A stretch of 36,254 bases of DNA from Candidatus Saccharimonadota bacterium (GTDB lineage: Bacteria > Patescibacteriota > Saccharimonadia > Saccharimonadales > JACDBH01): the NCBI GenBank assembly GCA_028289135.1, contig JAQGGW010000002.1, forward strand, positions 1-36,254, given 5' to 3'. Positions within the stretch are counted from its first letter, which is position 1, and every line of letters starts with the position of its first letter. The notes beneath the pieces are model-generated. The model had not been told where the DNA came from. It made no database searches and worked only from the letters and a program-made list of their open reading frames with translations. Both the position numbers and the translations under genes were made by a program. Shown in pieces: positions 5,723-32,718 of this stretch.

Positions 5723-6532
5723 ATGAAGATGTTGAATGGAAGCGAAATTGCAGGTTTTATCAAAGAGCGCCAGGCCTCCCAGGTCCGAGCTCTGCGTCAA
5801 AACCATAAAATTTATCCAAAACTGGCCATTATTGTCACTGTCGACAACCCCGTTATAGACGTCTACATGCGGCTTAAAGAGCGCTACGGCAAAGACGTCT
5901 TAGTTGATGTTGAAGTGCACCGTATTAAGCAGACAGAAGCGCCAGAACTGATAAAAAAGCTAAATGCCGACGACAGCGTGAGCGCGATTATTGTCCAGTT
6001 GCCGCTCGAAGACCCGACCCAAACAGATGCCATTGTTGACCTGGTTGACCCCAAAAAAGACGTTGACGCACTTGGAAAAAACGCCATTTATGAACCCGCT
6101 ACTCCGCTGGCGATCTTGTGGCTTTTGGCTGGCTATAATGTTGATCTGCGCGGTAAAAACATTTTGCTGATTGGACGCGGCAAACTGGTCGGTGCACCTC
6201 TGGAGCGGATCTTTAGCCACGATGGCTACAACGTTAAGGTTGCAACCCGCGCTACAACTGACCTAAAAGCCGAGACTTTGGATGCCGACATTATCATTAC
6301 CGCGGCCGGCAGCCCAGCACTACTGTTTTCTGACATGATCAAGCAGGGCGCTGTGGTCGTTGACGCCGGAGTCGCCAGTGAAGACGGCAAAACCGTAGGC
6401 GATGTAGCACCCGAAGTCTACGAGCGTGATGACCTAACCATTACACCAACCAAGGGCGGCGTTGGCCCGCTGACTGTTTGCGCGCTGTTTGATAACGTCA
6501 TCCGTGCCGCAACTGGCCTAATTAAAGCTTAG
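5723..6532 (+). CDS. folD: Bifunctional methylenetetrahydrofolate dehydrogenase/cyclohydrolase FolD
   Basis: This 269-residue enzyme interconverts 5,10-methylene-, methenyl- and 10-formyl-tetrahydrofolate in the cytosol. Visible marks: the YMRLKER motif containing the catalytic Tyr and Lys pair, VQLPL (VQLPLP in most members), DVDALG in place of DVDG, the Rossmann loop GRGKLVGAPL (usually GRSxxVGxP), and the C-terminal PTKGGVGPLTVCAL. The GRS-to-GRG change in the NADP-binding loop and the slightly short N-terminal region mark it as divergent, but the active-site residues are kept. Start ATG 5723 is chosen over GTG 5717 because of the promoter position. Its 3' end overlaps murD tail to tail by 11 bases. 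Confidence 0.92.
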   Translation: MKMLNGSEIAGFIKERQASQVRALRQNHKIYPKLAIIVTVDNPVIDVYMRLKERYGKDVLVDVEVHRIKQTEAPELIKKLNADDSVSAIIVQLPLEDPTQTDAIVDLVDPKKDVDALGKNAIYEPATPLAILWLLAGYNVDLRGKNILLIGRGKLVGAPLERIFSHDGYNVKVATRATTDLKAETLDADIIITAAGSPALLFSDMIKQGAVVVDAGVASEDGKTVGDVAPEVYERDDLTITPTKGGVGPLTVCALFDNVIRAATGLIKA

Positions 6533-7775
6533 CGACAGCCGCCTTAAACAAGGTGCCTTTTTCTTCAAAACCGCTCCAGGCAGAGTAGCTTGGCGCGGCG
6601 GTGCTCATAAGCACGACGCTCCCAGCAGGCGCGTGTTCGGCAGCCCATTTAACCGCTTCGTCCATGTCTTTTGTCTCAAAAATTTGTGGTGTGTAGCCTT
6701 CAGGCAGCATTTTCTTAAATGTTTCTTCGGTGTCGGGGAAAAGCACGAGGTTGGGGATATTCGCTTTTGCGACTTCGGCAATAAGCTCGCTAAAGTCATA
6801 GCCGCGGTCTTGGCCGCCCAAAAACAGGCAGCCAATTGGCCCGTGTTTTGCGGTTACTGCCTTCATGCTGGCCATGGTTGATTCTGGCGTCATGCCGATT
6901 GCATCGTTGATAAAAATGTGGCTGTCTTGGGTTGGCACTTGTTCCATGCGGTGTTCAAGCGGTTTAAAGCTGTTCAGCGCGGTTTGGCAATCTTCATCCA
7001 AGACTCCAAGCTCACGGGCAGCCATGCGTGCGGCTAGGGCGTTCAAGCGATTATGCTCGCCGTATAGCGCCGCGTTTTCCATACTAATATTTTCTTCAGC
7101 ATCAATTGCGGCCGTGCGGCAGGTCGCGCCCGCCGCCCATTCTTGCAGAGCAGGAAAATCAGGATTATAAATAAACAGATCCTCGGGGCCTGAGAAACGC
7201 ATAATATTGTGCTTTGCTTCCCAATACTTCTCTTGTGAACCATGCCAATCGGCGTGGTCGTTGAACAGGTTAATACATATGGCAACATTCGGGCTATATT
7301 TGATGTCAGATAGCTGGTAGCTGGAAAGTTCCAATACAAAAACAGTGTCTTTGGTGGCGTTTTCAAGGTTTTCAAATACCGAAACGCCAATATTGCCTCC
7401 CAAAACAACGTCAAGCCCGCCAGCGCGCAGCATGGCCGCCGTCAGGGCAGTGGTCGTACTTTTGCCTTTAGTGCCGGTTATACCAACCGTACGCGCGCCC
7501 AAACGTCCAACCAGTTCAAAAAACAGGTTCATGTTTGTCAGGTACGGCACCGGCATTTCGGTGCTCGGAATTCCTTCATTTTTAACAAAAACCGTCACTG
7601 CCGGGTCGTAGTCTTTTAAAAATGCCAATGGTTCGGCGCCGTCTTGCTTATCAACGCCCATTACAGACAAAGCCTTGCTATGTTTAGTCGCAAAGTCGTG
7701 GAAACTATCAAATGAACGGCCGCGGCCAACACCAACGAACACCACGTTTTTGCCGTCAAACGCGTCTATGTTCAT
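6522..7775 (-). CDS. murD: UDP-MurNAc-L-alanine:glutamate ligase (MurD, probably MurD2 type)
   Basis: The 417-residue Mur ligase adds glutamate to UDP-MurNAc-L-Ala in peptidoglycan precursor synthesis. It has an N-terminal nucleotide-binding fold (VVFVGVGRGRS, residues 11-21), the ATP loop GTKGKST (101-107), the central VLELSSYQL and INLFNDHADWHGS motifs with the metal/ATP-binding His, and the C-terminal domain (EHRMEQV, then LFLGGQDRGYDF). Its start overlaps the end of the next upstream gene by 4 bases. That gene looks like MurL, which epimerises UDP-MurNAc-L-Ala-L-Glu. The pairing suggests this ligase uses L-glutamate (MurD2 type, as in Xanthomonas) rather than D-glutamate. Ligase identity is firm; L-Glu specificity is inference from context. 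Confidence 0.9.
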   Translation of the reverse strand: MNIDAFDGKNVVFVGVGRGRSFDSFHDFATKHSKALSVMGVDKQDGAEPLAFLKDYDPAVTVFVKNEGIPSTEMPVPYLTNMNLFFELVGRLGARTVGITGTKGKSTTTALTAAMLRAGGLDVVLGGNIGVSVFENLENATKDTVFVLELSSYQLSDIKYSPNVAICINLFNDHADWHGSQEKYWEAKHNIMRFSGPEDLFIYNPDFPALQEWAAGATCRTAAIDAEENISMENAALYGEHNRLNALAARMAARELGVLDEDCQTALNSFKPLEHRMEQVPTQDSHIFINDAIGMTPESTMASMKAVTAKHGPIGCLFLGGQDRGYDFSELIAEVAKANIPNLVLFPDTEETFKKMLPEGYTPQIFETKDMDEAVKWAAEHAPAGSVVLMSTAAPSYSAWSGFEEKGTLFKAAVAKL

Positions 7776-9121
7776 TGCGCCAGCTCCGCCTGGATCTTAT
7801 CCGCAAGATTAGCAGGAAAGGCGCTGTCTGGCTGCAAGGCCAAAAGCTTTTCGGCTTCAGTGTCCCAGTCTTTGTCCTGAATAAGCCTCGAAGTTTTGGC
7901 CAGTTTCATTAGATGAGTATTCACGTATTTACCCTGTTTAAAAGCCAAGTTAAGCGATAAAACCAGCTCCTCAACAGTTCCAACGCAGTCCAGCGGCGGA
8001 TGTCCTTCTAGACCCGTTAACTCCTTAAAAAGCGGCTCCAAAGTCTCTTCGTTCATAAAATCAATCGTAAAAGTCCGTGCTATGTCGGCTTCGCTGAGCC
8101 ACGGCGCCAGCAAAATATAGCTGCTCAAACTTTTTGGGCTTTCCAGGCTCCAGCGCCCGCTTGGCCGTTTGGCCGGATCAATCCTAAAAACAAAATTGTC
8201 ACTGGTAAACACTTCAAAATACTGCGGCAGCGCAGCAAACTTTTTGGCGACTCCGATGGATGTCAGCGGGCGGATGGCGCTAAAATAAGTAACACCTTCC
8301 GCAATATGCTGCTTAACATAGGCCTGCAAAGACTTTTCAAACCCAAATGACTTGCTCCACTGGTGATTCACGGCCTCACCCTCCCATTCGGTCGTTGGCG
8401 TGCTAGAACTTGCCTCGTTTGCGACCACAACCATCGACGCTCCTTCAGTAAGCGCCATAACAACGCCCACCAAGCCAAAAATCAGCGAAATTGGCACGTG
8501 ACCCTTGTAGGCCCCGGGCTGCATCTGCAAGTTCATGAGCTCAGGCGCCAGCGTGCGGCCAATGGCACTGATGGGGATACCCATAACGTCGGCTACGGAC
8601 TTGGACTGGCCCAGCTGTTCGCCGGTTGCCATCACAAAACCGCTTAAATCCACATTAAGTTTTTTTAATAGCTCGCCAGCCACAATCGAATCCTTGCCGC
8701 CGCCAATGCCCAAAATTGCCTTTTCGTCCAGATCCAGAACCTCGCTAGGGGCAAATTCCTGTCCGTCCTGCGCCGCAAACTGGGCAACCTTGTCTTTAGA
8801 AAGCTTATTTACATACAAAAATTCGCCCAGCCCATTGCGGAAAACATCATTCCAAAAGGCCGCTTCGCCTGCGTCCATTTGATAAGGCTGCTCTATAGAT
8901 GGCGGTAAAAAGATCTTGTAATAACTGACCCCAAGCGCAATATGCAGCGCCCGCAAACCGCGTTGAACAGCGTCCGAACTTGGCAGTACATCAGGAAAAA
9001 CAAGCGTCTCCGTCAACAAATGCGACTCATTGGCCCTTACAATCTCATAAGCAAAACGCACCGTCTTGCCATCTGGCTGAATAGAAAAATCAAGGTAACA
9101 GAAAATGTCAGCGTTATTCAT
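7772..9121 (-). CDS. murL: MurL-type UDP-MurNAc-L-Ala-L-Glu epimerase
   Basis: The protein has 449 residues from the ATG at 9121, which sits 7 bases after a TGGTATACT -10. The frame stays open to 9181, but that region holds the promoter. MurL inverts the terminal L-glutamate of UDP-MurNAc-L-Ala-L-Glu using ATP and Mg2+, replacing glutamate racemase. Supporting marks are the PP-loop-like GIGGGKDS at residues 138-145 and the downstream VANEASSS and VNHQWSKSFGFE stretches, which resemble conserved MurL blocks recalled from the family. The direct coupling to a MurD gene is the known arrangement of murL. Alternative: another PP-loop ATPase of unknown role. The call rests on recalled family motifs plus context. 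Confidence 0.75.
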   Translation of the reverse strand: MNNADIFCYLDFSIQPDGKTVRFAYEIVRANESHLLTETLVFPDVLPSSDAVQRGLRALHIALGVSYYKIFLPPSIEQPYQMDAGEAAFWNDVFRNGLGEFLYVNKLSKDKVAQFAAQDGQEFAPSEVLDLDEKAILGIGGGKDSIVAGELLKKLNVDLSGFVMATGEQLGQSKSVADVMGIPISAIGRTLAPELMNLQMQPGAYKGHVPISLIFGLVGVVMALTEGASMVVVANEASSSTPTTEWEGEAVNHQWSKSFGFEKSLQAYVKQHIAEGVTYFSAIRPLTSIGVAKKFAALPQYFEVFTSDNFVFRIDPAKRPSGRWSLESPKSLSSYILLAPWLSEADIARTFTIDFMNEETLEPLFKELTGLEGHPPLDCVGTVEELVLSLNLAFKQGKYVNTHLMKLAKTSRLIQDKDWDTEAEKLLALQPDSAFPANLADKIQAELAQ

Positions 9122-9128
9122 GACTTCA

Positions 9129-9137
9129 AGTATACCA
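9129..9137 (-). promoter_or_regulatory. Promoter of murL-murD
   Basis: On the minus strand TGG-TATACT is followed by TGAAGTC and the murL ATG (7-base gap), the near-leaderless layout. Confidence 0.55.
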
Positions 9138-9181
9138 AGAACTTTCATACGGTAGTGCAGTTTGAGATGAAAGCCGAGCAC

Positions 9182-9632: not shown

Positions 9633-9701
9633 ATAATACTATGAATAACCTCAAAATAAACAAACGAGGTACTTGCAAAATTAACGTGCTTATGGTATAA
9701 T
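9633..9701. promoter_or_regulatory. Divergent leaderless promoters between regulator and 9708 gene
   Basis: Minus strand: TATTAT (9633-9638), AGTATT, ATG 9626. Plus strand: TTGCAA (9673-9678), 17-base spacer, TGG-TATAAT (9696-9701), GCTAAG, ATG 9708. Both gaps are six bases. The plus promoter is close to consensus with no space for a ribosome binding site. Confidence 0.65.
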
Positions 9702-9707
9702 GCTAAG

Positions 9708-10487
9708 ATGATCGAAACTATCAACCAGTTAACGGGGCTTGCACAGGCTAGTACTATGTATTATCCGCCTGGTATGGCAGGACGCTTAAAGCTAGCTGGT
9801 GAAGTTACAGCTAAGGCAATTCCCGATTCTATACATAACACTAGTGAAAGCGTAAGAGGTAAGATTAGAAATAGGTCTATAGGTGCTCTTTCTTTAGCTA
9901 TAATTACAGGTGCCCAAGTATATGCTGATGATAATATTTTTTACGGTATATTCTCTAAAGTTAAGGAAATGGCCGGCAATAGTGTTGGCGTAGCCTGGGG
10001 CGTTACATCGGTGGTTGCGGCTGCAGGACAGACTTTTTTCGCACGCAAAAATCAAAAACACATCGCTACTGAGTTAGCTGCCCAGGCTTACGAGCGAAAG
10101 CCAGAAGTAGCTCCTGCCGAAACATTTACGGATAGATTCAGTGAACGTTTTGATGCTGTTAAAGAACACACTAGAAAAGCGAGTGTAACGCTCTTAGCGC
10201 TTGGCGTACCAGGTCATGTTATGGTGGAGCCTATGACGAAGAAAGAAGTGTGGGCTCATGGAATTTTCTGGGGAGCAACTGCACCCGCCTTTTATACCGT
10301 TGCAAATATAAGCTTTGGTGCACTTGATAATCCAGTAGCCCCTTTTGGGGTAGCTGCTTTGTTATCAGCCACGCGTTATATTAATAATAGTTGGGAACGT
10401 GCAGGGGAAGTTGCGAACCTGAATGTAATGGACGCAGCCTCAAGAGAAGCCATTTCATTGCCAGTTGGTACCCCTAACGTAGCGTAA
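9708..10487 (+). CDS. Uncharacterised protein with several hydrophobic segments
   Basis: A 259-residue protein I do not recognise. Hydrophobic stretches lie at about residues 58-70 (GALSLAIITGAQVY), 92-108 (VGVAWGVTSVVAAAG), 160-172 (VTLLALGVPGHV), 186-205 and 210-220. They are rich in Ala and Gly and separated by charged stretches, one of them long and charged (about 115-155). This suggests a membrane-associated protein with four to five weak helices. Start is fixed by a consensus promoter 6 bases upstream. AT-rich codon use resembles the methyltransferase gene that follows. It lies just before the unusual trio at 10554-13913 but has its own promoter. Confidence 0.55.
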   Translation: MIETINQLTGLAQASTMYYPPGMAGRLKLAGEVTAKAIPDSIHNTSESVRGKIRNRSIGALSLAIITGAQVYADDNIFYGIFSKVKEMAGNSVGVAWGVTSVVAAAGQTFFARKNQKHIATELAAQAYERKPEVAPAETFTDRFSERFDAVKEHTRKASVTLLALGVPGHVMVEPMTKKEVWAHGIFWGATAPAFYTVANISFGALDNPVAPFGVAALLSATRYINNSWERAGEVANLNVMDAASREAISLPVGTPNVA

Positions 10488-10553: not shown

Positions 10554-11312
10554 ATGAACACTACTGTGCCTCAAACAGATTATGAATCATTTGATCCAGC
10601 AGCTTACTTGCAGGAGTATTATCTTGAGGTCGGTCCCGAAAACAAGTTTTTAGTTGAAACTGCTGCCAGGGCGTATAAAGACTTTCCTAATGATTCACTG
10701 GATATTCTAGAAGTTGGCGGTGGTCCAACAGTGTATCAAATCATAAGCTCTGCCCGTGCTGCAAAAACTATCCATTTTAGCGACTACTCTCAAAACAATC
10801 TTGATGAAGTCCAGGACTGGCTAAATGGGGATGGATTTAACTGGGAAGCCTACATTAAGGTGGGCTTAAAAGCCGAAGGTGTGGCCTCGGACCACGACGC
10901 TGTAATGCAGCGAAAAGCCGAAATGCAGCACAAAGTAACAAAGCTATCCCGCTATGACATTATTAGCGATACAATGCTTGCTACCGGCCAAGATACCTAT
11001 GACCTCGTCTCATGTGTATTTGCCTCTGATGCCATCACGCATTCCGTGGAAGGATGGAAAAATGTCCTGCTAAACCTTGCAAAACGTATTAAGAGCGGGG
11101 GTCAGCTGGTACTTGTGGGCGTAACAGGTTCAAATGCCTGGGTAATGGGTGGTAAGTCATTCAAGGCCACCAATCTGTCAGAGGAAGTTATACGAAAAAC
11201 ACTTAGTGAAGTTGGCTTTACTATTGAGCTTTACGAAAGTACGCCGGCAGAAGACGGCCAAGAACATGGTTATGACGGTGTTTTTTACCTAAGAGCAAGA
11301 AAACAGAATTAA
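10554..11312 (+). CDS. SAM-dependent methyltransferase of the NNMT/PNMT/TEMT type
   Basis: The 252-residue protein looks like the small-molecule N-methyltransferases nicotinamide, phenylethanolamine and thioether S-methyltransferase. Marks in order: FDPAAYLQEYY (13-23), matching the F-P--YL--YY opening of that family; SAM motif I EVGGGPTVYQI (53-63; the animal enzymes have IGSGPTIYQ); HFSDYSQNNLDEVQDWL (74-90; TDYSDQNLQELEKWL in NNMT as recalled); a DAITHSVEGW acidic-loop equivalent; and KSGGQLVLVG. Such enzymes methylate amines, pyridines or thioethers with S-adenosylmethionine. The substrate cannot be told. The gene ends 4 bases before the ArgS-like gene, so the two are probably cotranscribed. 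Upstream TGG-TACGAT near 10500 may be the promoter. Family type is fairly sure. Confidence 0.75.
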   Translation: MNTTVPQTDYESFDPAAYLQEYYLEVGPENKFLVETAARAYKDFPNDSLDILEVGGGPTVYQIISSARAAKTIHFSDYSQNNLDEVQDWLNGDGFNWEAYIKVGLKAEGVASDHDAVMQRKAEMQHKVTKLSRYDIISDTMLATGQDTYDLVSCVFASDAITHSVEGWKNVLLNLAKRIKSGGQLVLVGVTGSNAWVMGGKSFKATNLSEEVIRKTLSEVGFTIELYESTPAEDGQEHGYDGVFYLRARKQN

Positions 11313-11316
11313 AAAT

Positions 11317-12708
11317 ATGCGCATCTTAAGAATAAAAAAGCCTAAAAAAACCCAGCCTTTGTCGCAGCACCCTCGTGAATTTATAGAAGAATTATTAAAT
11401 ATCGTAATTTATCAACTATACGGAATAGAATATAGCGCTGTTGTGGCGCACCCGGCAAAAACGGTGGCCGCAAAAACCGCGCATAAGATTGACTATGTAT
11501 TTACGAGCTTTGAATTAGCGAACGGCATGGACCAGTCACCAATAAAAGTTTCAGACGAAATTGCTACCCAGATTATCCGCTGGATAGAAAAGAAAAAGCC
11601 AAACTCCCTACAAGACATAAAGCTTGAATCCGTAAATGGGTATGTTAACTTTGAACTTTCCGAGAAATATCTTTCGGAAGCGGCTTATTATGTCGCGCAC
11701 TGGCTCCAAAGACCCCAAGACCGCCAAAAGAAAAGTAAACGAATGAGAATTTTGGTCGAAGGTCCTGTTTTGGGCGAGGACCCCGAAACCAAACCGGTAA
11801 ATGAAACGTTTTCATTTGTGCGGGAGCTTTATGGGGCGGCGGGCTACAGTGTGCTTAGTAAGTATCTTATGTCTGACGCTTCAGAAGACGCAGCTAAAAA
11901 GTCCGCGCCTGGGTTAATGGAAAGCAACAATTTCCGTTTGATGCCAAAAGGACACAACCCAGTGGTAGAATCCGCGCAGTTTGAACGCCGGGTGCGTAAG
12001 CTGCTAAACGGTCAAGTAGCGGCCAAAAGTGACGAAGCTTTAGCGCAACGGATACTTAAACTGCAAAAGAACTATCTGGAACGCTGTATTAAAGAATTAA
12101 AAAAGAGCAATCTTAACCCTGAGGATTTAGTAGCCGAATCTGCATTGACAAAAAAAGTCCATGAATGGCTAGATACAACGGCTAAAAAACGTGATCATAT
12201 AATCTTTAGTACATCTAACCAGTCGGCTTACTACCACATACCGGTTGGGCCTATGGCATCCCTAAGAACTGCGAACGGGTCACTTTTTAGAGCGGCGTAT
12301 CTGTTATATAGCCTTGACACCGTACTTAGCCACGAATCAAGCCGTCATGACTTATTGGTGGCGATCGTACCTAAAAAATACCACCAGCTTTTGTACGGGC
12401 ACGCCGACCTATTAGGAGCAAATATCTCCTACAAAACATTTATCTGTATTGACCCAGAATTTGTATATACAACGCTCCCGCTACGACGCAAAAGTTTGGG
12501 CGCACTGAGCATAGCTTCACAAAAGATAGCCCATGGGCTGGCAAGCGCCCTGCATAAAAACGTGCATAATGGCGAGGCCCGTTCTAGCTTGGTTGGCTTG
12601 GTAGATTTCCCGGTTGAACTTAACGAACTTGCGAGTCATGTCCGTCTTTTAGAAGTTTTTGCACTCATTACCAGCAGCGTGGCTAACGCGGAAGAGTTTT
12701 TAAGTTAA
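11317..12708 (+). CDS. Arginyl-tRNA-synthetase-like protein lacking HIGH and KMSKS motifs
   Basis: The 463-residue protein has the outline of class I arginyl-tRNA synthetase. Residues 21-130 resemble the ArgS N-terminal tRNA-elbow domain (HPAKTV; PIKVSDEIATQII; then VNGYVNFELSEKYLSEA, compare AGPGFINFxLxxxxL). Residues 143-190 resemble the first strand and helix of the Rossmann core (RILVEGP, then FSFVRELYGAAGYSVL, compare the IGD-ARxxEFxGYxV region). At the place of HVGH stands EDPETKPVN, and no KMSKS is visible. Residues 290-385 (SLDTVLSHESSRHDLL..YHQLLYGHADLLG) resemble the ArgS stretch ADRVIY-GADQ-xHF. The anticodon-binding domain is short or absent. This looks like a non-canonical paralogue. 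Possible roles: aminoacyl transfer, arginine or amino-acid binding, or a regulatory pseudoenzyme. The homology is remote and judged by eye. Confidence 0.5.
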   Translation: MRILRIKKPKKTQPLSQHPREFIEELLNIVIYQLYGIEYSAVVAHPAKTVAAKTAHKIDYVFTSFELANGMDQSPIKVSDEIATQIIRWIEKKKPNSLQDIKLESVNGYVNFELSEKYLSEAAYYVAHWLQRPQDRQKKSKRMRILVEGPVLGEDPETKPVNETFSFVRELYGAAGYSVLSKYLMSDASEDAAKKSAPGLMESNNFRLMPKGHNPVVESAQFERRVRKLLNGQVAAKSDEALAQRILKLQKNYLERCIKELKKSNLNPEDLVAESALTKKVHEWLDTTAKKRDHIIFSTSNQSAYYHIPVGPMASLRTANGSLFRAAYLLYSLDTVLSHESSRHDLLVAIVPKKYHQLLYGHADLLGANISYKTFICIDPEFVYTTLPLRRKSLGALSIASQKIAHGLASALHKNVHNGEARSSLVGLVDFPVELNELASHVRLLEVFALITSSVANAEEFLS

Positions 12709-13913
12709 ACCCGGTCAGCTAAAATTTCATGTATATCACGGCTTATTAGCATTGGCCGGTCAATCTTAATATCCCCGTATAATAAAAAGTTTGATTTAGA
12801 CCCGTAGCCTCCGTACTGGCCGTTACCAAACTCGACATCGTTAACAATTTGGTTTTCCACTACGGTTGCAAACCCCAACTTCTTTTTGAGGTTTTCATCA
12901 CTTCCAAATAAGCATATATACATCGTGTGATCCTTAAAATCTTGGGACAAAAGCGTCCGTTCCAGCTCTGAGGTGTTGTTGTATTCCAAAATATAAAATA
13001 CGGGCGCGAAAAATTCATGAAAACTCTCGGTGCCGTGTTCTTGTAAAGTTTTTCTGACAATGCTCGGATATACTAAATGCTTGTCGTAGTCTATCTCGCC
13101 CCCAAAAGCTAGGTTTTCGCGTTCTTTGGTTAAAAATTCTTTTAACTTTTCAATGTAAGTGTTTTTAATAGTTTTACTGACCCGTACTTTCGGATCGGCC
13201 GAACTGCCAACTTTTATATTTTCTAATTCTTGCTGCAGCTTTCCTACGAACAAGTCAGACAATGTGTGCGGGACAAAAAAAGCGTCTGGTCCGGCACAAT
13301 CTTGGCCACTGTTAAAACAGCGCATCTCGACTGCTTTTTGTACGGCAAGATCAATATCGGCGTTTTCTAGTACAACAAATGGATTTATGCCGCTGCCGTT
13401 ATAAACCAGCAAGGCTTGCGGGCACTTTTTATGTATATCAAGTGCATTTTCGTATTTGCCCGTAAAGATTATGACATCCGATTCATAAGCGTAAAGGTCC
13501 ATAAAAATATAGCGCTGTACTGCGTGCAGGGAAATGTTTGGAAAAAGGTCATTGATCTTGAGGTAACTATAAAGTTCGGTTAAGACTTCATGCATAACTT
13601 CGGGCGGGCGTATGAATACGTTTTTAGCAAAGGCACTTGGGGCGATTCCAAAGATAACTAGGGAGTAGATGGGCAGGTTTAGCGGAAAGAAAGTCGAAAT
13701 AGTTAGGCTATCCAGTGGCTTTTTGATTGGACTAAATTCTTCTTCCAGACCTTTTAGGGTCGCGATAGCACGATCAATCTCATCATTTGCGGTCTCGTAT
13801 GTTTCGTACTTAGATAATATAGACACAAGTTCATACCTCTGCTGGGAAATCTTTTGAGCAAGGCGGAGACACGAGGCAAAGTAACTGGTTGCTGGGGGAC
13901 TGGTTTTTATCAT
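12705..13913 (-). CDS. Aldehyde-dehydrogenase-superfamily protein, short and atypical
   Basis: The 402-residue protein follows the ALDH order: FPLNLP (76-81, the PWNFP site), KNVFIRPPE (98-105, cofactor-site Lys replaced by Arg), FTGKYENA (150-157, FTGSxxxG), VYNGSGINPFVVLENADID (170-188), and the catalytic block FNSGQDCAG with Cys206. The general-base Glu of LELGG, expected near residue 171, is replaced by a VYNGSG stretch. The usual length is 480-500, so about 80 residues at the N terminus are reduced. It could act as an acylating or thioester-linked reductase, or have lost activity. The stop overlaps that of the ArgS-like gene by 4 bases (convergent). No RBS is visible and the upstream region is A-rich. 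Confidence 0.75.
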   Translation of the reverse strand: MIKTSPPATSYFASCLRLAQKISQQRYELVSILSKYETYETANDEIDRAIATLKGLEEEFSPIKKPLDSLTISTFFPLNLPIYSLVIFGIAPSAFAKNVFIRPPEVMHEVLTELYSYLKINDLFPNISLHAVQRYIFMDLYAYESDVIIFTGKYENALDIHKKCPQALLVYNGSGINPFVVLENADIDLAVQKAVEMRCFNSGQDCAGPDAFFVPHTLSDLFVGKLQQELENIKVGSSADPKVRVSKTIKNTYIEKLKEFLTKERENLAFGGEIDYDKHLVYPSIVRKTLQEHGTESFHEFFAPVFYILEYNNTSELERTLLSQDFKDHTMYICLFGSDENLKKKLGFATVVENQIVNDVEFGNGQYGGYGSKSNFLLYGDIKIDRPMLISRDIHEILADRV

Positions 13914-15160: not shown

Positions 15161-16588
15161 ATGGCTCTGCTTAGATCAAAAACTTCTGCTTCAGCCCCCG
15201 CTTCGTCCGCGGCACCTGTAGTTGATACCAGCCACATTGCCCAAGAAGTATACCGCAAGAACGTTGAGCTGGCGCACACCAACCAGACGCTGTCGCTGCT
15301 GCGCACCATCGACAACCTGGTGTTGGAGTCCCAAACTGGCCTTGATACCCTGACAAAAGGCGTCGCTGACGCCGTGATAGCCAACTCAAACTATCCGTTT
15401 AGCGCCATTTTCCTTCGTCCGCGTGATGAACTAAAAGTTCCGATGGTTCTAAAAGGCTTTAAAACCCAGGTTACGCCTGAGAATTTTGACATGGCAAGCT
15501 TTAACATGGTAGAAGCCTGCGCCGTTGCGGGTTGGGCTGATTCTGTCAGCCAGTGTGTGGTTATCGACCTGCTTGCGACAGATAAAACAGTACTGAACGC
15601 AACGTTTAAAAAAGAAGCTCCCAAGGTGTTAGACCTGGCCAAAAAGCTGCAATGCCAGGCGCTATGTTTTATAAAACTGCTGGCCCGCAAGGATCTGGTC
15701 GGGCTTTTGGTCGTCGGCGTGGCCCAGGCGGCTTCGACGATAAAACTCGAAGACCTGGAGCACATTGGCCGAATTGGCGAAGCGGTGGGGATCGCCATCG
15801 ACAACAAACTGCTGTTCGAAGAAAACCAAGCGGTATTAAAGAAGTTAAAACAGTCCAACCAAAAACTTAAGGCGCTCGACGAGGCCAAGGATGAGTTTAT
15901 TAGCATGGCGTCGCACCAGCTTCGCACACCTTTGACCTCTGTAAAGGGCTATGTTTCGATGGTGCTGGAGGGTGATGTGGGCAAGGTGAGCAGCCAGCAA
16001 CGCGAAATGCTCGAACAGGCTTTTGCCTCCAGCCAGCGGATGGTTTATCTTATTGCCGATTTGTTAAACGTCTCCCGCCTAAAAACCGGCAAATTTGTAA
16101 TCGAAACCGCGCCAACCTACCTCCCAGACGTGGTCGAAACAGAGATGAAACAGTTGCTTGAGTCCGCCAAAGCCCGCAACCTGGAGCTGATTTTTGACAG
16201 ACCGGCCGAGTTCCCGATGTTAAACCTCGATGAAACCAAAACCCGCCAGGTCATTATGAACTTTATGGACAACGCCATCTACTACACCCCGGCTGGCGGC
16301 CATATCCGTGTAGAACTTTTGGCCACCGATAAAGTGGTGGAATATAAGGTTGTAGACGACGGCCTGGGCGTACCAAAAGCCGAAATGGCGCACCTCTTTA
16401 CCAAGTTCTACCGGGCAGGCAACGCCAAAAAAGCCCGCCCAGACGGCACCGGCCTTGGCCTGTTTATGGCCAAAAAAGTAGTCATTGCCCAGGGCGGCAG
16501 CATTATATTTGAAAGTGAAGAAAACAAAGGAAGTACCTTTGGCTTTTCTTTCCCGCGCGCGGCCTTGGAAGTCAAAAAAACATCGTAA
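15161..16588 (+). CDS. Soluble GAF-domain histidine kinase
   Basis: The 475-residue kinase has a low-complexity Ala/Ser-rich start (residues 6-20), a coiled segment, a GAF domain (about 45-215), a helical linker (KKLKQSNQKLKALDEAKDEF), HisKA with FISMASHQLRTPLTS (His phosphorylation site), and a HATPase domain with N-box NFMDNAIYYTPAGG, G1 VDDGLGVP, F-box LFTKFYRAG and G2 GTGLGLFMAKK. It lacks membrane helices, unlike the kinase at 3801-5675, consistent with the membrane sensor being the separate protein at 13982. The RBS is AGGGG at 15147-15151. No response regulator follows. The downstream gene has its own promoter. Confidence 0.92.
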   Translation: MALLRSKTSASAPASSAAPVVDTSHIAQEVYRKNVELAHTNQTLSLLRTIDNLVLESQTGLDTLTKGVADAVIANSNYPFSAIFLRPRDELKVPMVLKGFKTQVTPENFDMASFNMVEACAVAGWADSVSQCVVIDLLATDKTVLNATFKKEAPKVLDLAKKLQCQALCFIKLLARKDLVGLLVVGVAQAASTIKLEDLEHIGRIGEAVGIAIDNKLLFEENQAVLKKLKQSNQKLKALDEAKDEFISMASHQLRTPLTSVKGYVSMVLEGDVGKVSSQQREMLEQAFASSQRMVYLIADLLNVSRLKTGKFVIETAPTYLPDVVETEMKQLLESAKARNLELIFDRPAEFPMLNLDETKTRQVIMNFMDNAIYYTPAGGHIRVELLATDKVVEYKVVDDGLGVPKAEMAHLFTKFYRAGNAKKARPDGTGLGLFMAKKVVIAQGGSIIFESEENKGSTFGFSFPRAALEVKKTS

Positions 16589-20204: not shown

Positions 20205-20279
20205 GGTCCCATCGTCTATCGGTTAGGACACTGGGTTTTCATCCCAGCAAGAGGAGTTCGACTCTCCTTGGGATCACCA
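20205..20279 (+). tRNA. tRNA-Glu (anticodon UUC)
   Basis: A 75-base cloverleaf: acceptor GGTCCCA (20205-20211) pairs with TGGGATC (20269-20275); the anticodon stem CTGGG/CCCAG encloses TTTTCAT with anticodon TTC at 20238-20240; T arm GAGGA-GTTCGAC-TCTCC; discriminator A; CCA encoded (20277-20279). Its 3' part serves as the integration site of the adjacent element. Confidence 0.95.
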
Positions 20280-21774
20280 TCGTATTCGAATCAGGCACTT
20301 CGGTGCCTGTTTTCATGTTCGCTAAGGTGTAAAGTGTGCTTAATTTGGGCGTTCGAAATTTATTTGTAGTGAGGTCGTATTCTAGGCCTTCTGGAAACAC
20401 CAGGCGTTGGTAGATGATTTGATGTTCTATCGAGGCGTTGCTCCATATTCTTGGGGCGTTCGACATAAAACGCATAGCGTAGTCGATTGCATCAGTTTTT
20501 AGTTCTGACAAGGACCCGATACTCGCAAGGTCTTGCTGTATAGTGTCGGACTCATTTTTTATCTTCGCAACGAGGTCTTTCTTTTCTTCTAGAGAAATAT
20601 CGCCCGAAACAAATGCCTCTACCGTTTTGTTTCTTCTCTCTGTGAGCTGTTCTAAGACCTTATGGAGCTTCTTCTGCTTATTACCTAGGGTTTGTGTTTC
20701 GTCACGCCAGACACGTACAATTATCTCTTTTAGGAACTTCTCCACGTCTGGGTCAGGAGTTAGTGAGGCAAGTAGGTGTAGGAATTGTTCGTGAAGCTCA
20801 CCTGACTGCACAGAGGGGACATGACATCTAGCACAGTGGTAGCGTGGCGAACGCTTGCCTGAGCCACCAACTGGACTGCTACCTGTTAGAGGTTTATTAC
20901 ACTTCGCACACAGCATAAAGCGTCTCAGAGGGAATTCAGGGTTATTCTTCTTATATGTAGCGGCAGAGTTCTTGTTGGTTCTCAGAAGCTCTTGATTACG
21001 GTGATAGACCGCAGGGGTAATGATGCCATCGAATTTTGAGGATACGAGCTGATCCTCTGTGTGACGGTTCTGTTCAAGCCCTGCATAGATAGGGTTACGC
21101 AACATCTTACTGAGAGCCTGTATTTGCATCGGCTTACCTTGAGCAGACTTTAACCCTATGCTCTCGCACATCTTAATTAAGCCAGCTATCGTATACGTAC
21201 CCGTTGTGTATGCTTCGAGGACAGAGGCCACCTTATCGGCGACCCCCTCTATTGGTGCAAGTACAGACTTATCTAGCAGGTCTCTCACGTTTTTAAGACC
21301 ATGAGGTGCTTTGCTCATGCGATAGCCCTCTTTAGCATGGACTTTCATGTTATCTTTTACACGAACAGATTTAACCTTATTGTCGTGCTGAGCAAGTACA
21401 GCCTCTATATTCTGTATAAGCTCCTCATTAACACTATCTTCTAGGCTTGAGTTGATGTTCTTGTACTCAATTCCCAGTTTTGATAGAAGAGTACGTAGTG
21501 CAAAGAAGTCTGTGGCGTTGCGAGTGAGACGATCCGTCTGGTACGTAATGAGATAGTGAATGCGACCCTTGTTTGCCTCAAGGTACGCTAACATCTCTTT
21601 CATAGCAGGACGGTCTAAGGTTTTGGCTGATACACCGTCATCATGGTAGATTTTCTCGACCAGTACATTGTTGCGTGATGCCCATTCTTGGCACATCATT
21701 TGTTGCGTTTCAAGACTCGCTCCCTCTACCTGCTTGGTAGTTGACACACGGAGATAAATGACTGCTTTTTTCAT
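20239..21774 (-). CDS. Large serine recombinase (integrase)
   Basis: The 511-residue site-specific recombinase catalyses integration or excision through a Ser-DNA link. Its N-terminal resolvase domain (1-150) has YLRVSTTKQ with catalytic Ser11, and TDRLTRN. The Recombinase domain (about 165-270) is followed by a zinc ribbon (CAKC near 300 and CARC near 325), a coiled-coil region (about 360-430) and a C-terminal tail. The gene runs into the tRNA-Glu it targets: its last codons (VIPRRVELLLLG) are the antisense of the tRNA 3' half, and its TGA (20239-20241) overlaps the anticodon. Excision would therefore give the protein a different C terminus. Its start overlaps the upstream small ORF by 4 bases. 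Confidence 0.92.
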   Translation of the reverse strand: MKKAVIYLRVSTTKQVEGASLETQQMMCQEWASRNNVLVEKIYHDDGVSAKTLDRPAMKEMLAYLEANKGRIHYLITYQTDRLTRNATDFFALRTLLSKLGIEYKNINSSLEDSVNEELIQNIEAVLAQHDNKVKSVRVKDNMKVHAKEGYRMSKAPHGLKNVRDLLDKSVLAPIEGVADKVASVLEAYTTGTYTIAGLIKMCESIGLKSAQGKPMQIQALSKMLRNPIYAGLEQNRHTEDQLVSSKFDGIITPAVYHRNQELLRTNKNSAATYKKNNPEFPLRRFMLCAKCNKPLTGSSPVGGSGKRSPRYHCARCHVPSVQSGELHEQFLHLLASLTPDPDVEKFLKEIIVRVWRDETQTLGNKQKKLHKVLEQLTERRNKTVEAFVSGDISLEEKKDLVAKIKNESDTIQQDLASIGSLSELKTDAIDYAMRFMSNAPRIWSNASIEHQIIYQRLVFPEGLEYDLTTNKFRTPKLSTLYTLANMKTGTEVPDSNTMVIPRRVELLLLG

Positions 21775-29451: not shown

Positions 29452-32400
29452 ATGAACGATAGCCCGATTATAGATCCGTGGGCCCAAGAGGTGGTCGTTG
29501 ATACGACGCGCCTGTTTACTGGGCTTAATCCAGAACAGCGGCGGGCTGTCGAAACCACCGAAGGTCCGCTTTTAATCCAGGCTGGGGCGGGCAGCGGCAA
29601 GACCAAGACGCTGACGCACCGGATTGCGTATATTATTGCGACCAACAAGGCCACGGCTTACAACATACTGGCGGTAACATTCACCAACAAGGCAGCCAAA
29701 GAAATGCGCGCCCGAATTGGACATCTGCTTGGTGAAAAGGCCGACAACCGCGGTTTTATGCCTTATACAGGTACATTTCACGGCATTTGTGTGCGGTTAC
29801 TGCGCCAAGACGGGGATTATATTGGGGTGCCAAAAAACTTCGTGATTTTTGACGAAAGCGATCGCCAAAGCGCCATCAAGCAGGCTAGCCGGCGATTGCG
29901 TTTGGACGAAAAGGCCTTTCCTGCCCGGATGATTGGCGGCCTGATCAGCAATGCAAAAAATGATCTTGTGGGCCCGGACGAATACGCCAGCCTAGCCGGC
30001 TCTCCGGCCCAGGAAGCAGCCGCTCAAGTTTATCCAGTTTATGAAAAAGCTTTAAAAGACGCGGGCGGGCTGGACTTTGATGATTTGATCCTAAAAACCG
30101 TGCAGATGCTGGAAAAAAGCGAAGAAGTCCGCGCCAAATGGCAGCGCCAGTTTGCCTACGTCATGATCGACGAATACCAAGACACCAACGCCGCCCAGTA
30201 CAAATTGGTTAAGCTGCTTACAGGTCCAAACAATAACATCGCGGTCGTGGGCGATGATTGGCAGTGTTTCCCGCCAGGCACAATGATTGAAACGGCTGAG
30301 GGACCCAAAACAATAGAGTCCATCAAAGCTGGTACACTAGTCCGCTCGGCAAGCGGCTATGGCAATTCGGGTCTTTTTAAGGTTACTAACAATAGGACAT
30401 TTGACTACGAGGGTGATCTTATTAGCATTAAGACCGAAAAAGGCCATCACATAACCTGTACACCCAATCACATATTATTTTCGCGTTTTGACAAAACAGA
30501 CGCTTATTTTGTTTACCTTATGTTTTCTAGGGAAAAGGGATATAGGATAGGGCTTACCAAAGGTACACGTTTTGACGGCAAGAAAGATGACATTGGCCTT
30601 AGGGTGCGCGCAAACCAGGAGCGGGCGGATCGTATGTGGGTCTTGCGTGTATGTAAAAACCGTGAAGAGGCGGCATATTACGAAATGCTGCTGGCTTTTC
30701 AATACGGCATTCCAACAGTGGTTTTTCACGCTTATCCAAACCGGGCAATGATGTTTTCGCAGGAACATATTGATAACATCTTTAACAAGATCAATACCGT
30801 CGAGCGCGCAGAGTTACTTATTAAAAATGAAGGGTTGCAGTTTGACTTCCCACATTTTCAACCGCAGGCGACTATCCGTAGTAGCAGGAGACGAGTGAAT
30901 TTAAATGTTGTCATGTTTGGCGATAAAAGGCGGACTGAACAGAGCAACTGGTCGGCTAGCAGGCTTTCCCTGAATACTACGAACGCAAGCGATTTAGATT
31001 TTATGAAGGCAGAAGGGTACAGCGTTCGTTCCGCCAAAGCAGGTACATATAGAAGTGAAATACATAAACTTGATTACGGGGCGATCGAACAGGTATTTGA
31101 AAGTATTCGTCACATTGCTGGGGATGTCCAGGTTAATAAGTATGCCTTTATGACTGATGAAAGGTTCACTTTTATGCCTGCCAGCCAGATTCACCCTGAA
31201 ATGACAGTACCTGTACTTGATGGCGCAGAAAAAGTTACAAAAGACCGGGTGATTTCTATAGAAAAAATAAAGTACCAAGGCAAGGTGTATGACCTTGATG
31301 TCGAAAAGGTTCATAACTACATAGCATCAGGAATCGTAACCCATAATTCGATTTATAGTTGGCGCGGGGCTGATTTTAGGAACATATTAAATTTTGAGCG
31401 CGACCATCCAAAAGTAACTGTTATTAAACTTGAGCAGAATTACAGAAGTACTAAGGCCATCTTGGATGCGGCGCATGCCGTGATCACCAAAAACACCCAG
31501 CGCTCTGATAAAAAACTCTGGACCGAAGAGGGCAATGGTTTGCCGATCCAAATTTTGCAAACCCAAAGCGAACGCGGAGAAGGCGAAGCAATTATCCGCA
31601 GGATCCAAACCAGCCTCGACATGGGCAGCCGCAAATACAGTGACTTCGCGGTTTTGTACCGCACCAATGCCCAGTCCAGGTCGATTGAGGAAATGTTTGT
31701 CCGCTACGGCGTGCCATACCGCGTTGTCGGTGGCGTGCGGTTTTATGACCGCAAAGAAATCAAGGACATTATCGCCTATCTGCGCCTCATCTTCCAGCCC
31801 GAAGATGCTGTTAGTTTTGAACGGATTGCCAATGTGCCGACCCGTGGTTTGGGCCCAAAGTCGCTCAGCACTTTTATGGAGTGGGCTCGCAACCGGGGCG
31901 GTCTGCTCCTCGGGCTAGAAACAGTAAGTGACTGCCCAGGCCTAACGCCAAAAGCACTAAAAGGCTTTACTGACATTGCCGACATTTTAATCAGCTACCG
32001 CAACATTATGATGGACACGGCCGTTGCCGGACTTGTCGACAGCCTGCTAAAACGCTTGGATTATTATGCCTATTTGGAAGACGGTTCGCTGCAGGGCGAG
32101 TCGCGCGCCGAAAACGTCCGCGAACTTATCTCGGTTGCCAAGGCCTACCAAGACGTGGGTTTGGATGGATTTCTAGAAGAAGTTAGCTTGGTGAGCGACC
32201 TCGACTCGGCCGACTTTAGCGGCAACGCCGTTACGCTAATGACGCTGCACGCCGCCAAAGGCCTGGAGTTCCCGGTGGTGTTTATGGTCGGGCTGGAAGA
32301 AACTATCTTTCCGCACAGCCGCGCGCTGTATGACCCCAGCGAAATGGAGGAAGAGCGCCGGCTGATGTACGTGGGAATGACACGTGCCCGTTATGAGCTG

Positions 32401-32718
32401 TATCTGCTCTACGCCTCGGCACGGGTTTTGTACGGCGGTATGCAGCACAACCCGCCAAGCCGGTTTTTGTCAGAAATCGACGGTCAAATTTTGGCAGTTG
32501 AGCCAATCCCAACGCCGGGTGTGTTTGGCCAGGACGCTCATGTAATTTCAAATGAACCGCGTTATGTGGTGGAGCTAAACCAAGGCGATACAGTAAAGCA
32601 CCAGGTTTTTGGCACTGGCACCGTTATGGATGTGGACGGCGACAATGTGGCTGTAATGTTTAAGACAAAGGGCTTAAAACGTCTGAATTCGACTTTCGCT
32701 CCGCTCGAGAAATTATGA
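29452..32718 (+). CDS. UvrD/PcrA-type DNA helicase precursor with an intein
   Basis: The 1088-residue precursor codes for a 3'-5' superfamily 1 helicase for repair and replication restart. Walker A AGAGSGKT (44-51), VTFTNKAAKEMR (motif Ia), Walker B IDEYQD, QNYRS (motif IV), the ALYRTNAQSR stretch, TLMTLHAAKGLEFP (motif V) and RRLMYVGMTRAR (motif VI) are present. Motif III is split: ..VVGDDWQ is followed by a 361-residue intein (272-632) and then SIYSWRGAD. Removing it leaves 727 residues, the normal length. The C-terminal end carries a Tudor-like segment (GTGTVMDVDGDNVAV). The stop overlaps the next gene by 4 bases. UvrD and PcrA cannot be told apart, so no symbol is given. Confidence 0.95.
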   Translation: MNDSPIIDPWAQEVVVDTTRLFTGLNPEQRRAVETTEGPLLIQAGAGSGKTKTLTHRIAYIIATNKATAYNILAVTFTNKAAKEMRARIGHLLGEKADNRGFMPYTGTFHGICVRLLRQDGDYIGVPKNFVIFDESDRQSAIKQASRRLRLDEKAFPARMIGGLISNAKNDLVGPDEYASLAGSPAQEAAAQVYPVYEKALKDAGGLDFDDLILKTVQMLEKSEEVRAKWQRQFAYVMIDEYQDTNAAQYKLVKLLTGPNNNIAVVGDDWQCFPPGTMIETAEGPKTIESIKAGTLVRSASGYGNSGLFKVTNNRTFDYEGDLISIKTEKGHHITCTPNHILFSRFDKTDAYFVYLMFSREKGYRIGLTKGTRFDGKKDDIGLRVRANQERADRMWVLRVCKNREEAAYYEMLLAFQYGIPTVVFHAYPNRAMMFSQEHIDNIFNKINTVERAELLIKNEGLQFDFPHFQPQATIRSSRRRVNLNVVMFGDKRRTEQSNWSASRLSLNTTNASDLDFMKAEGYSVRSAKAGTYRSEIHKLDYGAIEQVFESIRHIAGDVQVNKYAFMTDERFTFMPASQIHPEMTVPVLDGAEKVTKDRVISIEKIKYQGKVYDLDVEKVHNYIASGIVTHNSIYSWRGADFRNILNFERDHPKVTVIKLEQNYRSTKAILDAAHAVITKNTQRSDKKLWTEEGNGLPIQILQTQSERGEGEAIIRRIQTSLDMGSRKYSDFAVLYRTNAQSRSIEEMFVRYGVPYRVVGGVRFYDRKEIKDIIAYLRLIFQPEDAVSFERIANVPTRGLGPKSLSTFMEWARNRGGLLLGLETVSDCPGLTPKALKGFTDIADILISYRNIMMDTAVAGLVDSLLKRLDYYAYLEDGSLQGESRAENVRELISVAKAYQDVGLDGFLEEVSLVSDLDSADFSGNAVTLMTLHAAKGLEFPVVFMVGLEETIFPHSRALYDPSEMEEERRLMYVGMTRARYELYLLYASARVLYGGMQHNPPSRFLSEIDGQILAVEPIPTPGVFGQDAHVISNEPRYVVELNQGDTVKHQVFGTGTVMDVDGDNVAVMFKTKGLKRLNSTFAPLEKL
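30265..31347 (+). mobile_element. Intein with GIY-YIG-like homing endonuclease domain
   Basis: Protein residues 272-632. Splicing marks: Cys1 (CFPPGTMIETAEG), block B with CTPNH (T337-H340), block F VYDLDVEKVHNYI, and block G VTHN with Ser as the +1 residue. This is a class 1 intein. Between the halves lies an insert; residues 352-425 read YFVYL....KGYRIGLTKG, then LRVRA, then REEAAYYEMLL. This matches the order of GIY-YIG nucleases (GIY = VYL, YIG = YRIG, Arg384 or Arg386, Glu411). LAGLIDADG motifs, the usual intein nuclease type, are not visible. A DNA-binding segment probably follows (about 430-560). The insertion point is a conserved helicase motif that inteins are known to use. Confidence 0.85.

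Follow-up and report, generated by a model that had tools for sequence, protein, structure and literature searches.

An aldehyde dehydrogenase-like protein recurrently paired with class-I tRNA synthetases or their fragments in small bacterial genomes

What a methyltransferase, a protein derived from arginyl-tRNA synthetase (ArgS) and a protein resembling aldehyde dehydrogenases (ALDHs) might do together is the question raised by three adjacent genes in a 36,254-nucleotide stretch of DNA from a Candidatus Saccharimonadota bacterium, referred to below as the window, whose source genome measures 1.05 Mb and is 95.6% complete. An earlier sequence-only reading had proposed, as a plausible scheme, a dedicated trio in which the synthetase-like protein binds or activates an amino acid or aminoacyl-tRNA, the ALDH-like protein handles a thioester or aldehyde and the methyltransferase modifies an amine. 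The layout that it described, coordinates included, is confirmed (Table 1): a gap of 4 bases separates the methyltransferase gene from the ArgS-derived gene, and the ALDH-like gene is convergent with the latter and overlaps it by 4 bases. The trio itself does not hold up, as the recurrent unit comprises only two of the three genes, those for the ALDH-like and the synthetase-derived protein.

About 895 genomes, covering the order, the phylum and two further families, were probed with the ALDH-like protein. This gave nine members of its clade in small genomes, six of which lie tail-to-tail with, or are fused to, a class-I aminoacyl-tRNA synthetase or a piece of one. The partner derives from ArgS in the window and in the genomes G046 and G347, which represent two other taxonomic families, and from class-I lysyl-tRNA synthetase (LysRS-I) in G130, G154 and G706. 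As in the window, the ALDH gene of G046 and G347 is placed tail-to-tail with the ArgS-derived gene; a 4-base overlap of the stop codons is common to the window and G347. The G347 partner is a full-length ArgS with catalytic, DALR and N-terminal domains and intact HIGH/KMSKS-type motifs (GINHL and KLSTR); a second, housekeeping ArgS is encoded elsewhere in that genome. The pairing takes its clearest form in G130 and G154, where a single chain of about 990 residues has the ALDH as its N-terminal half and LysRS-I as its C-terminal half (PF01921 E 4.5e-100 and PF00171 E 1e-33 in one open reading frame (ORF); lysS_arch 366 bits), with the SGxVHFGN and KMSS motifs of the synthetase intact. Away from the cluster, G130/G154 encode two more synthetases, of class II, and the linked synthetases of G347, G130 and G154 are extra copies. 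In G706 the ALDH is followed by just the last 100 or so residues of LysRS-I, without the catalytic domain (hhalign 96.6%, E 6.6e-10; 71.7 bits against a shuffle maximum of 19.5). A contig end truncates the locus of a further member, G868. Of 50 ordinary ALDH loci from the same searches, none had a homologue of ArgS or LysRS-I at a distance of 1.5 kb or less. The window and G046 were counted as one lineage because a FolD-MurD-MurL region near the pair is common to both, which leaves the association in four lineages, from bacteria only distantly related to one another. No description of an ALDH-synthetase fusion was found in the literature searched, subscription journals lying outside that search.

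Several observations accompany these loci. The linked ArgS of G347 did not arise by recent duplication of the housekeeping ArgS in the same genome; it forms a long branch of uncertain place near Bacillota-type ArgS (SH-aLRT, a likelihood-based branch support, 82). The fusion of G130 and G154 belongs to a conserved cluster that also encodes a class-II LysS-like paralogue, a phosphoenolpyruvate-synthase-like protein, a Polbeta nucleotidyltransferase, an amidohydrolase and unassigned proteins. With the two LysRS classes next to each other, this cluster may make a natural product based on lysine. A Polbeta-type nucleotidyltransferase recurs in G592 (27% identity, 6e-9) and is a second recurrent neighbour of the ALDH-like gene. 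At six of the nine loci, related sensor-kinase-type proteins are encoded no more than a few kb away from the ALDH-like gene; they may be common in these genomes.

The ALDH-like protein of the window matches PF00171 (Aldedh) with E 3.5e-25 and 88.9 bits (cut-off 23) and is about 100 residues short at its N-terminus, the profile match beginning at 80. As the sequence-only reading had recognised, this short protein retains a Cys (residue 206, in GQDC) and has lost the Glu of LELGG, the position being occupied by Asn172 (YNGSG). In a maximum-likelihood tree it belongs to a clade of 13 proteins that stands apart from ordinary ALDHs with 100/100 support and is composed of the nine small-genome members, three Streptomyces plasmid proteins and one protein from a viral contig (L074). 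The ArgS-linked members form a subclade (97/94); on the LysRS-linked side G130 and G154 group together (100/100) and are joined by G706 and G868 (95/87). The catalytic Cys is kept in all 13, in GQDC or GEDC. The position of Glu268 holds Asn in eight members, Phe in the three Streptomyces proteins, Ser in G592, Cys in L074 and Glu in none, as compared with Glu in 10 of 10 ordinary ALDHs, and the window protein accordingly lacks the general base of a hydrolytic, acid-forming ALDH. Since Glu268 activates the water that hydrolyses the ALDH thioester (PMC8160307), the clade, from which it is lost, is expected to use the thioester otherwise than by hydrolysis.

The LuxC/acyl-CoA reductase profile PF05893 was passed by the G789 member only (22.0, cut-off 21); the window protein gave no PF05893 match and was recognised by PF00171 alone. 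Its best PDB profile matches include betaine, aminobutyraldehyde and aminoaldehyde dehydrogenases. Plasmid matches at E < 1e-20 came exclusively from Streptomyces (13 records; relatives with 31% identity, E 5e-48), and three annotated Streptomyces clusters share the gene order ALDH, thiamine pyrophosphate (TPP) enzyme, adenylate-forming enzyme. Viral contigs yielded the distant ALDH L074 and nothing else. A weak match in G172 was rejected as a clade member, being an ordinary ALDH with LEMGG.

Taken alone, the ArgS-derived protein of the window gives weak matches to the N-terminal part of ArgS (PF03485 E 0.087; NCBIfam argS E 0.0011), the Pfam matches falling under the cut-off. It has a relative in the same arrangement in G046, from another family of the order, with 27% identity, as against 55% for the ALDHs of the two genomes. 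When a profile of these two proteins was compared with 14 ArgS by hhalign, residues 23-123 matched the N-terminal additional domain (94.5%, E 8.1e-8, 56.4 bits), the best of 60 column shuffles reaching 22.9 bits; against LysRS-I the profile gave no match. The absence of HIGH and KMSKS noted earlier is upheld: neither motif is present, the class-I catalytic domain PF00750 is not matched, and a collinear alignment places a gap at the HIGH position. No match to the DALR anticodon-binding domain (PF05746) was obtained, the C-terminal part scoring at shuffle level. PDB sequence searches with the protein, or with it and its G046 relative, found nothing, and neither did a DNA-pattern scan of the genome contigs with the protein alone. 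The synthetase fold proposed for it is thus supported for the N-terminal domain and not beyond. On profile evidence, the protein is predicted to carry the tRNA-contacting domain of ArgS, and none of these tests supports it as a synthetase. A separate normal ArgS is encoded in the same genome (L001, 552 aa, HAGH/KMSSR motifs). A match in G345 was rejected as a relative of the ArgS-derived protein, being a normal ArgS.

The methyltransferase is of the NNMT/PNMT type, as had been read from the sequence (NNMT_PNMT_TEMT PF01234, E 1.1e-41, 143 bits, cut-off 25; PDB match to NNMT, E 2.8e-21). It also passes the NCBIfam equivalog cut-off for GntF, the guanitoxin N-methyltransferase (93.8 bits against 60). 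This identity was not adopted although the cut-off was passed; the scan of the window ORFs showed no other guanitoxin-pathway gene, the rest of the genome not having been searched for such genes. Of 393 genomes of the order, the window's own alone has a PF01234 match above the cut-off; the family is absent from G046 and does not adjoin the ALDH-synthetase pair at loci other than the window. The methyltransferase is an accessory and not a conserved part of the unit; in the window its gene plausibly shares a transcript with the ArgS-derived one, and the enzyme may locally tailor the product. Linkage across genomes was therefore found for the ALDH-like protein and its ArgS-like or LysRS-I partner and not for the trio. 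The idea of a synthetase-derived protein serving a thioester or aldehyde enzyme with an aminoacyl group still fits, because the ArgS-like/ALDH pair recurs and sister ALDHs form single chains with class-I LysRS or with its C-terminal portion.

How, then, might the pair work? In the parent enzymes, the N-terminal domain of ArgS contacts the outer corner of tRNA-Arg and the C-terminal region of LysRS-I contacts the anticodon. Two unrelated synthetases have each, in some members, been cut down to a tRNA-contacting part, which favours recognition of tRNA over activation of an amino acid, and such recognition would be the simplest account of a need common to both subclades. The preferred reading, held tentatively and with somewhat less than even confidence, is that the ALDH-like and the synthetase-derived protein are one unit that uses aminoacyl-tRNA outside translation and reduces it to an amino aldehyde. 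The tRNA would carry arginine in the subclade of the window and lysine in the sister subclade, and would be recognised by the synthetase-derived part. Charging would be performed by that part itself in G347, G130 and G154, where it is probably still able to do so, and by the housekeeping ArgS in the window. Cys206 of the ALDH-like protein would take the aminoacyl group as a thioester and, with no Glu268 to aid water, this thioester would be reduced by NAD(P)H to an alpha-amino aldehyde; in the window, an amine of the product may afterwards be methylated by the neighbouring NNMT-type enzyme. The pair suggests an undescribed route by which amino acids are taken off tRNA into another chemical. 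Somewhat more doubtful is the broader proposal of a second kind of aminoacyl-tRNA reductase, in which an ALDH fold takes its guidance from ArgS or LysRS-I modules that it has captured. Such an enzyme would supply arginine- or lysine-derived amino aldehydes to specialised metabolism in very small bacteria that are probably symbiotic.

Several points weigh against reduction of aminoacyl-tRNA by the pair. The chemistry is inferred, and the tRNA binding predicted for the retained domains comes from knowledge of the parent enzymes. The remaining 330 or so residues of the ArgS-like protein, its middle and C-terminal parts, gave no score above shuffles. There is no usable structural model of either window protein, AlphaFold having returned a mean confidence (pLDDT) of 33 for the ArgS-like and 43 for the ALDH-like protein, each from a two-sequence alignment. 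No synthetase part lies near the ALDH-like gene in G789 or G592, which are two of the nine members, genes arranged tail-to-tail are no operon, and at most loci no tRNA gene lies by the pair.

The reaction could also run in the opposite direction, the ALDH-like enzyme oxidising an amino aldehyde to the Cys thioester and, for want of Glu268, passing the acyl group to a partner-held tRNA, an amine or CoA. A kept Cys and a lost Glu268 fit acyl transfer as well as reduction, and the betaine, aminobutyraldehyde and aminoaldehyde dehydrogenases among the PDB matches are oxidising enzymes. This direction is nevertheless unlikely: the Streptomyces relatives adjoin adenylate-forming enzymes, which supply rather than remove activated acids, and the full synthetases of G347, G130 and G154 are already able to charge tRNA. 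The same adenylate-forming partners, together with the intact HIGH/KMSKS-type motifs of these three synthetases, speak for a scheme without tRNA, in which the synthetase part makes an aminoacyl-AMP and the ALDH-like part reduces the adenylate, as in two-component carboxylic acid reductases like GriC/GriD. On this view the proteins of the window and G046 either take an activated amino acid from another source or have lost the reaction. That the window, G046 and G706 keep the tRNA-contacting part and have no recognisable catalytic synthetase domain makes such a scheme unlikely as well.

Retention of tRNA-contacting parts without catalytic ones would in turn suit a role in tRNA modification or repair, where the synthetase part picks tRNA-Arg or tRNA-Lys and the substrate of the ALDH-like enzyme is an aldehyde or acyl group carried by a base or by the 3' end; the Polbeta-type nucleotidyltransferase by the ALDH in G130, G154 and G592 could likewise act on tRNA. 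We regard this role as improbable, given that the Streptomyces relatives occur with small-molecule biosynthesis genes, that the units occur sporadically, unlike most tRNA modification genes, which are widespread, and that the full synthetases of some members point to the amino acid. An accidental neighbourhood, with an ordinary ALDH next to a methyltransferase and an ArgS duplicate in decay, is very improbable. It would explain why the methyltransferase is linked in the window only and why the ArgS-like protein, devoid of catalytic motifs, evolves fast in comparison with the ALDH, and the window and G046, with their shared FolD-MurD-MurL region, amount to one event. Independent recurrence in G347, the LysRS-I fusions of G130 and G154 and the LysRS-I tail of G706, set against the ordinary ALDH loci, largely refute it for the ALDH-synthetase pair; the methyltransferase may be a neighbour by chance. 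Two further ideas were rejected: PADLOC gave no match for the trio that would mark a defence system, and the only RNAs that Rfam reported as candidate partners were two tRNAs 6-8 kb away.

The hydrophobic protein encoded upstream of the methyltransferase gene had no family match in profile-library scans. A hydrophobic protein occupies the same place upstream of the ArgS-like gene in G046, and the two are not homologous. A promoter-like TTGCAA-17-TATAAT sequence ends 7 bases 5' of the gene in the window, and such sites are within chance expectation. Elsewhere in the window, MurD is followed by a distant homologue of MurL, the UDP-MurNAc-L-Ala-L-Glu epimerase (270.7 bits against a cut-off of 700), and a UvrD/PcrA helicase is split by an intein whose insert has a stretch resembling a GIY-YIG-type homing endonuclease. 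A large serine recombinase gene overlaps a tRNA-Glu gene, which suggests an integrated mobile element at that tRNA.

Table 1. Positions of the genes and sites discussed (window coordinates unless a locus label is given).
Feature	Position	Strand	Evidence or remark
Hydrophobic protein, function not assigned, possible first gene of same transcript	9708..10487	+	no family match
NNMT/PNMT/TEMT-family methyltransferase, 252 aa	10554..11312	+	PF01234, GntF model, PDB NNMT match
ArgS-derived partner of ALDH-like protein, 463 aa, no HIGH or KMSKS motif	11317..12708	+	weak PF03485 and argS matches
ArgS N-terminal (additional) domain, residues 23-123 of ArgS-derived protein	11383..11685	+	hhalign
ALDH-like protein, 402 aa, non-hydrolytic-type clade; core of recurrent pair	12705..13913	-	PF00171, tree, residues
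Codon of Cys206, equivalent to catalytic Cys302, in FNSGQDCAGPD	13296..13298	-	kept in 13/13 clade members
Codon of Asn172, at Glu268 (general base) position of hydrolytic ALDHs, LELGG to YNGSG	13398..13400	-	residue comparison
Promoter-like sequence	9673-9701		
MurD, then distant MurL homologue	6522-9181	-	
tRNA-Glu gene	20205-20279	+	
Large serine recombinase gene	20239-21774	-	CcrB/XisF-like
Recombinase/tRNA-Glu overlap region	20205-21774		
UvrD/PcrA helicase with intein	29452-32718	+	Intein_splicing E 3.2e-15
Sensor-kinase-type proteins	15161-16588; L011 545-2761; L078 9460-10920; L079 6807-8324; L080 10113-11693; L119 1555-7012		
Relative of ArgS-derived protein, G046	L011 5254-6405		27% identity
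ALDH-linked full-length ArgS, G347	L033 9043-10896		
Cluster with ALDH-LysRS-I fusion, G130	L034 3820-12554		
Cluster with ALDH-LysRS-I fusion, G154	L035 3370-12090		
Polbeta-type nucleotidyltransferase, G130	L034 10912-11487		
Polbeta-type nucleotidyltransferase, G154	L035 10388-11020		
Polbeta-type nucleotidyltransferase, G592	L080 5843-6565		

If reduction of aminoacyl-tRNA by the pair is true, it would make a new link between the translation machinery and small-molecule chemistry, in bacteria with genomes of about 1 Mb where specialised metabolism is unexpected, and the single-chain ALDH-LysRS fusion makes the idea testable with one recombinant protein. The chemistry proposed is that of glutamyl-tRNA reductase (HemA), which in haem synthesis converts an aminoacyl-tRNA through a Cys thioester to an aldehyde by means of NAD(P)H and is, to our knowledge, the only well-known route reducing a tRNA-borne amino acid to an aldehyde; it differs in having an unrelated fold, in acting on glutamate only and in lacking a synthetase-derived part. 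Class-I LysRS (lysS_arch) is present as the whole enzyme behind the ALDH of G130 and G154 and as its C-terminal part behind that of G706, whereas the known enzyme stands alone without an ALDH domain. The Streptomyces plasmid ALDHs belong to the same clade, with the Cys kept and Glu268 lost, but they have TPP and adenylate-forming partners and carry Phe, not Asn, in place of Glu268, and no synthetase was seen with them. SbzA, an IleRS-like aminoacyltransferase that uses Ile-tRNA in SB-203208 biosynthesis, is likewise a synthetase-derived protein acting on aminoacyl-tRNA outside translation, and its gene cluster also has an ALDH (PMC6331615); it is, however, of IleRS origin and moves Ile to a small molecule, the cluster ALDH SbzJ oxidises a different substrate, and there is no ALDH fusion. 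GriC/GriD pairs an acyl-AMP former with a reductase, and the two convert an acid into an aldehyde (PMC10179220). These enzymes and the LuxC-type reductases resemble the pair in joining an adenylating enzyme to a reductase for aldehyde formation, the G789 member exceeding the LuxC cut-off, but the adenylating partner of GriC/GriD is an AMP-ligase and no tRNA synthetase. Each half of the proposed scheme thus has a precedent, because SbzA uses Ile-tRNA and GriC/GriD reduce an activated acid.

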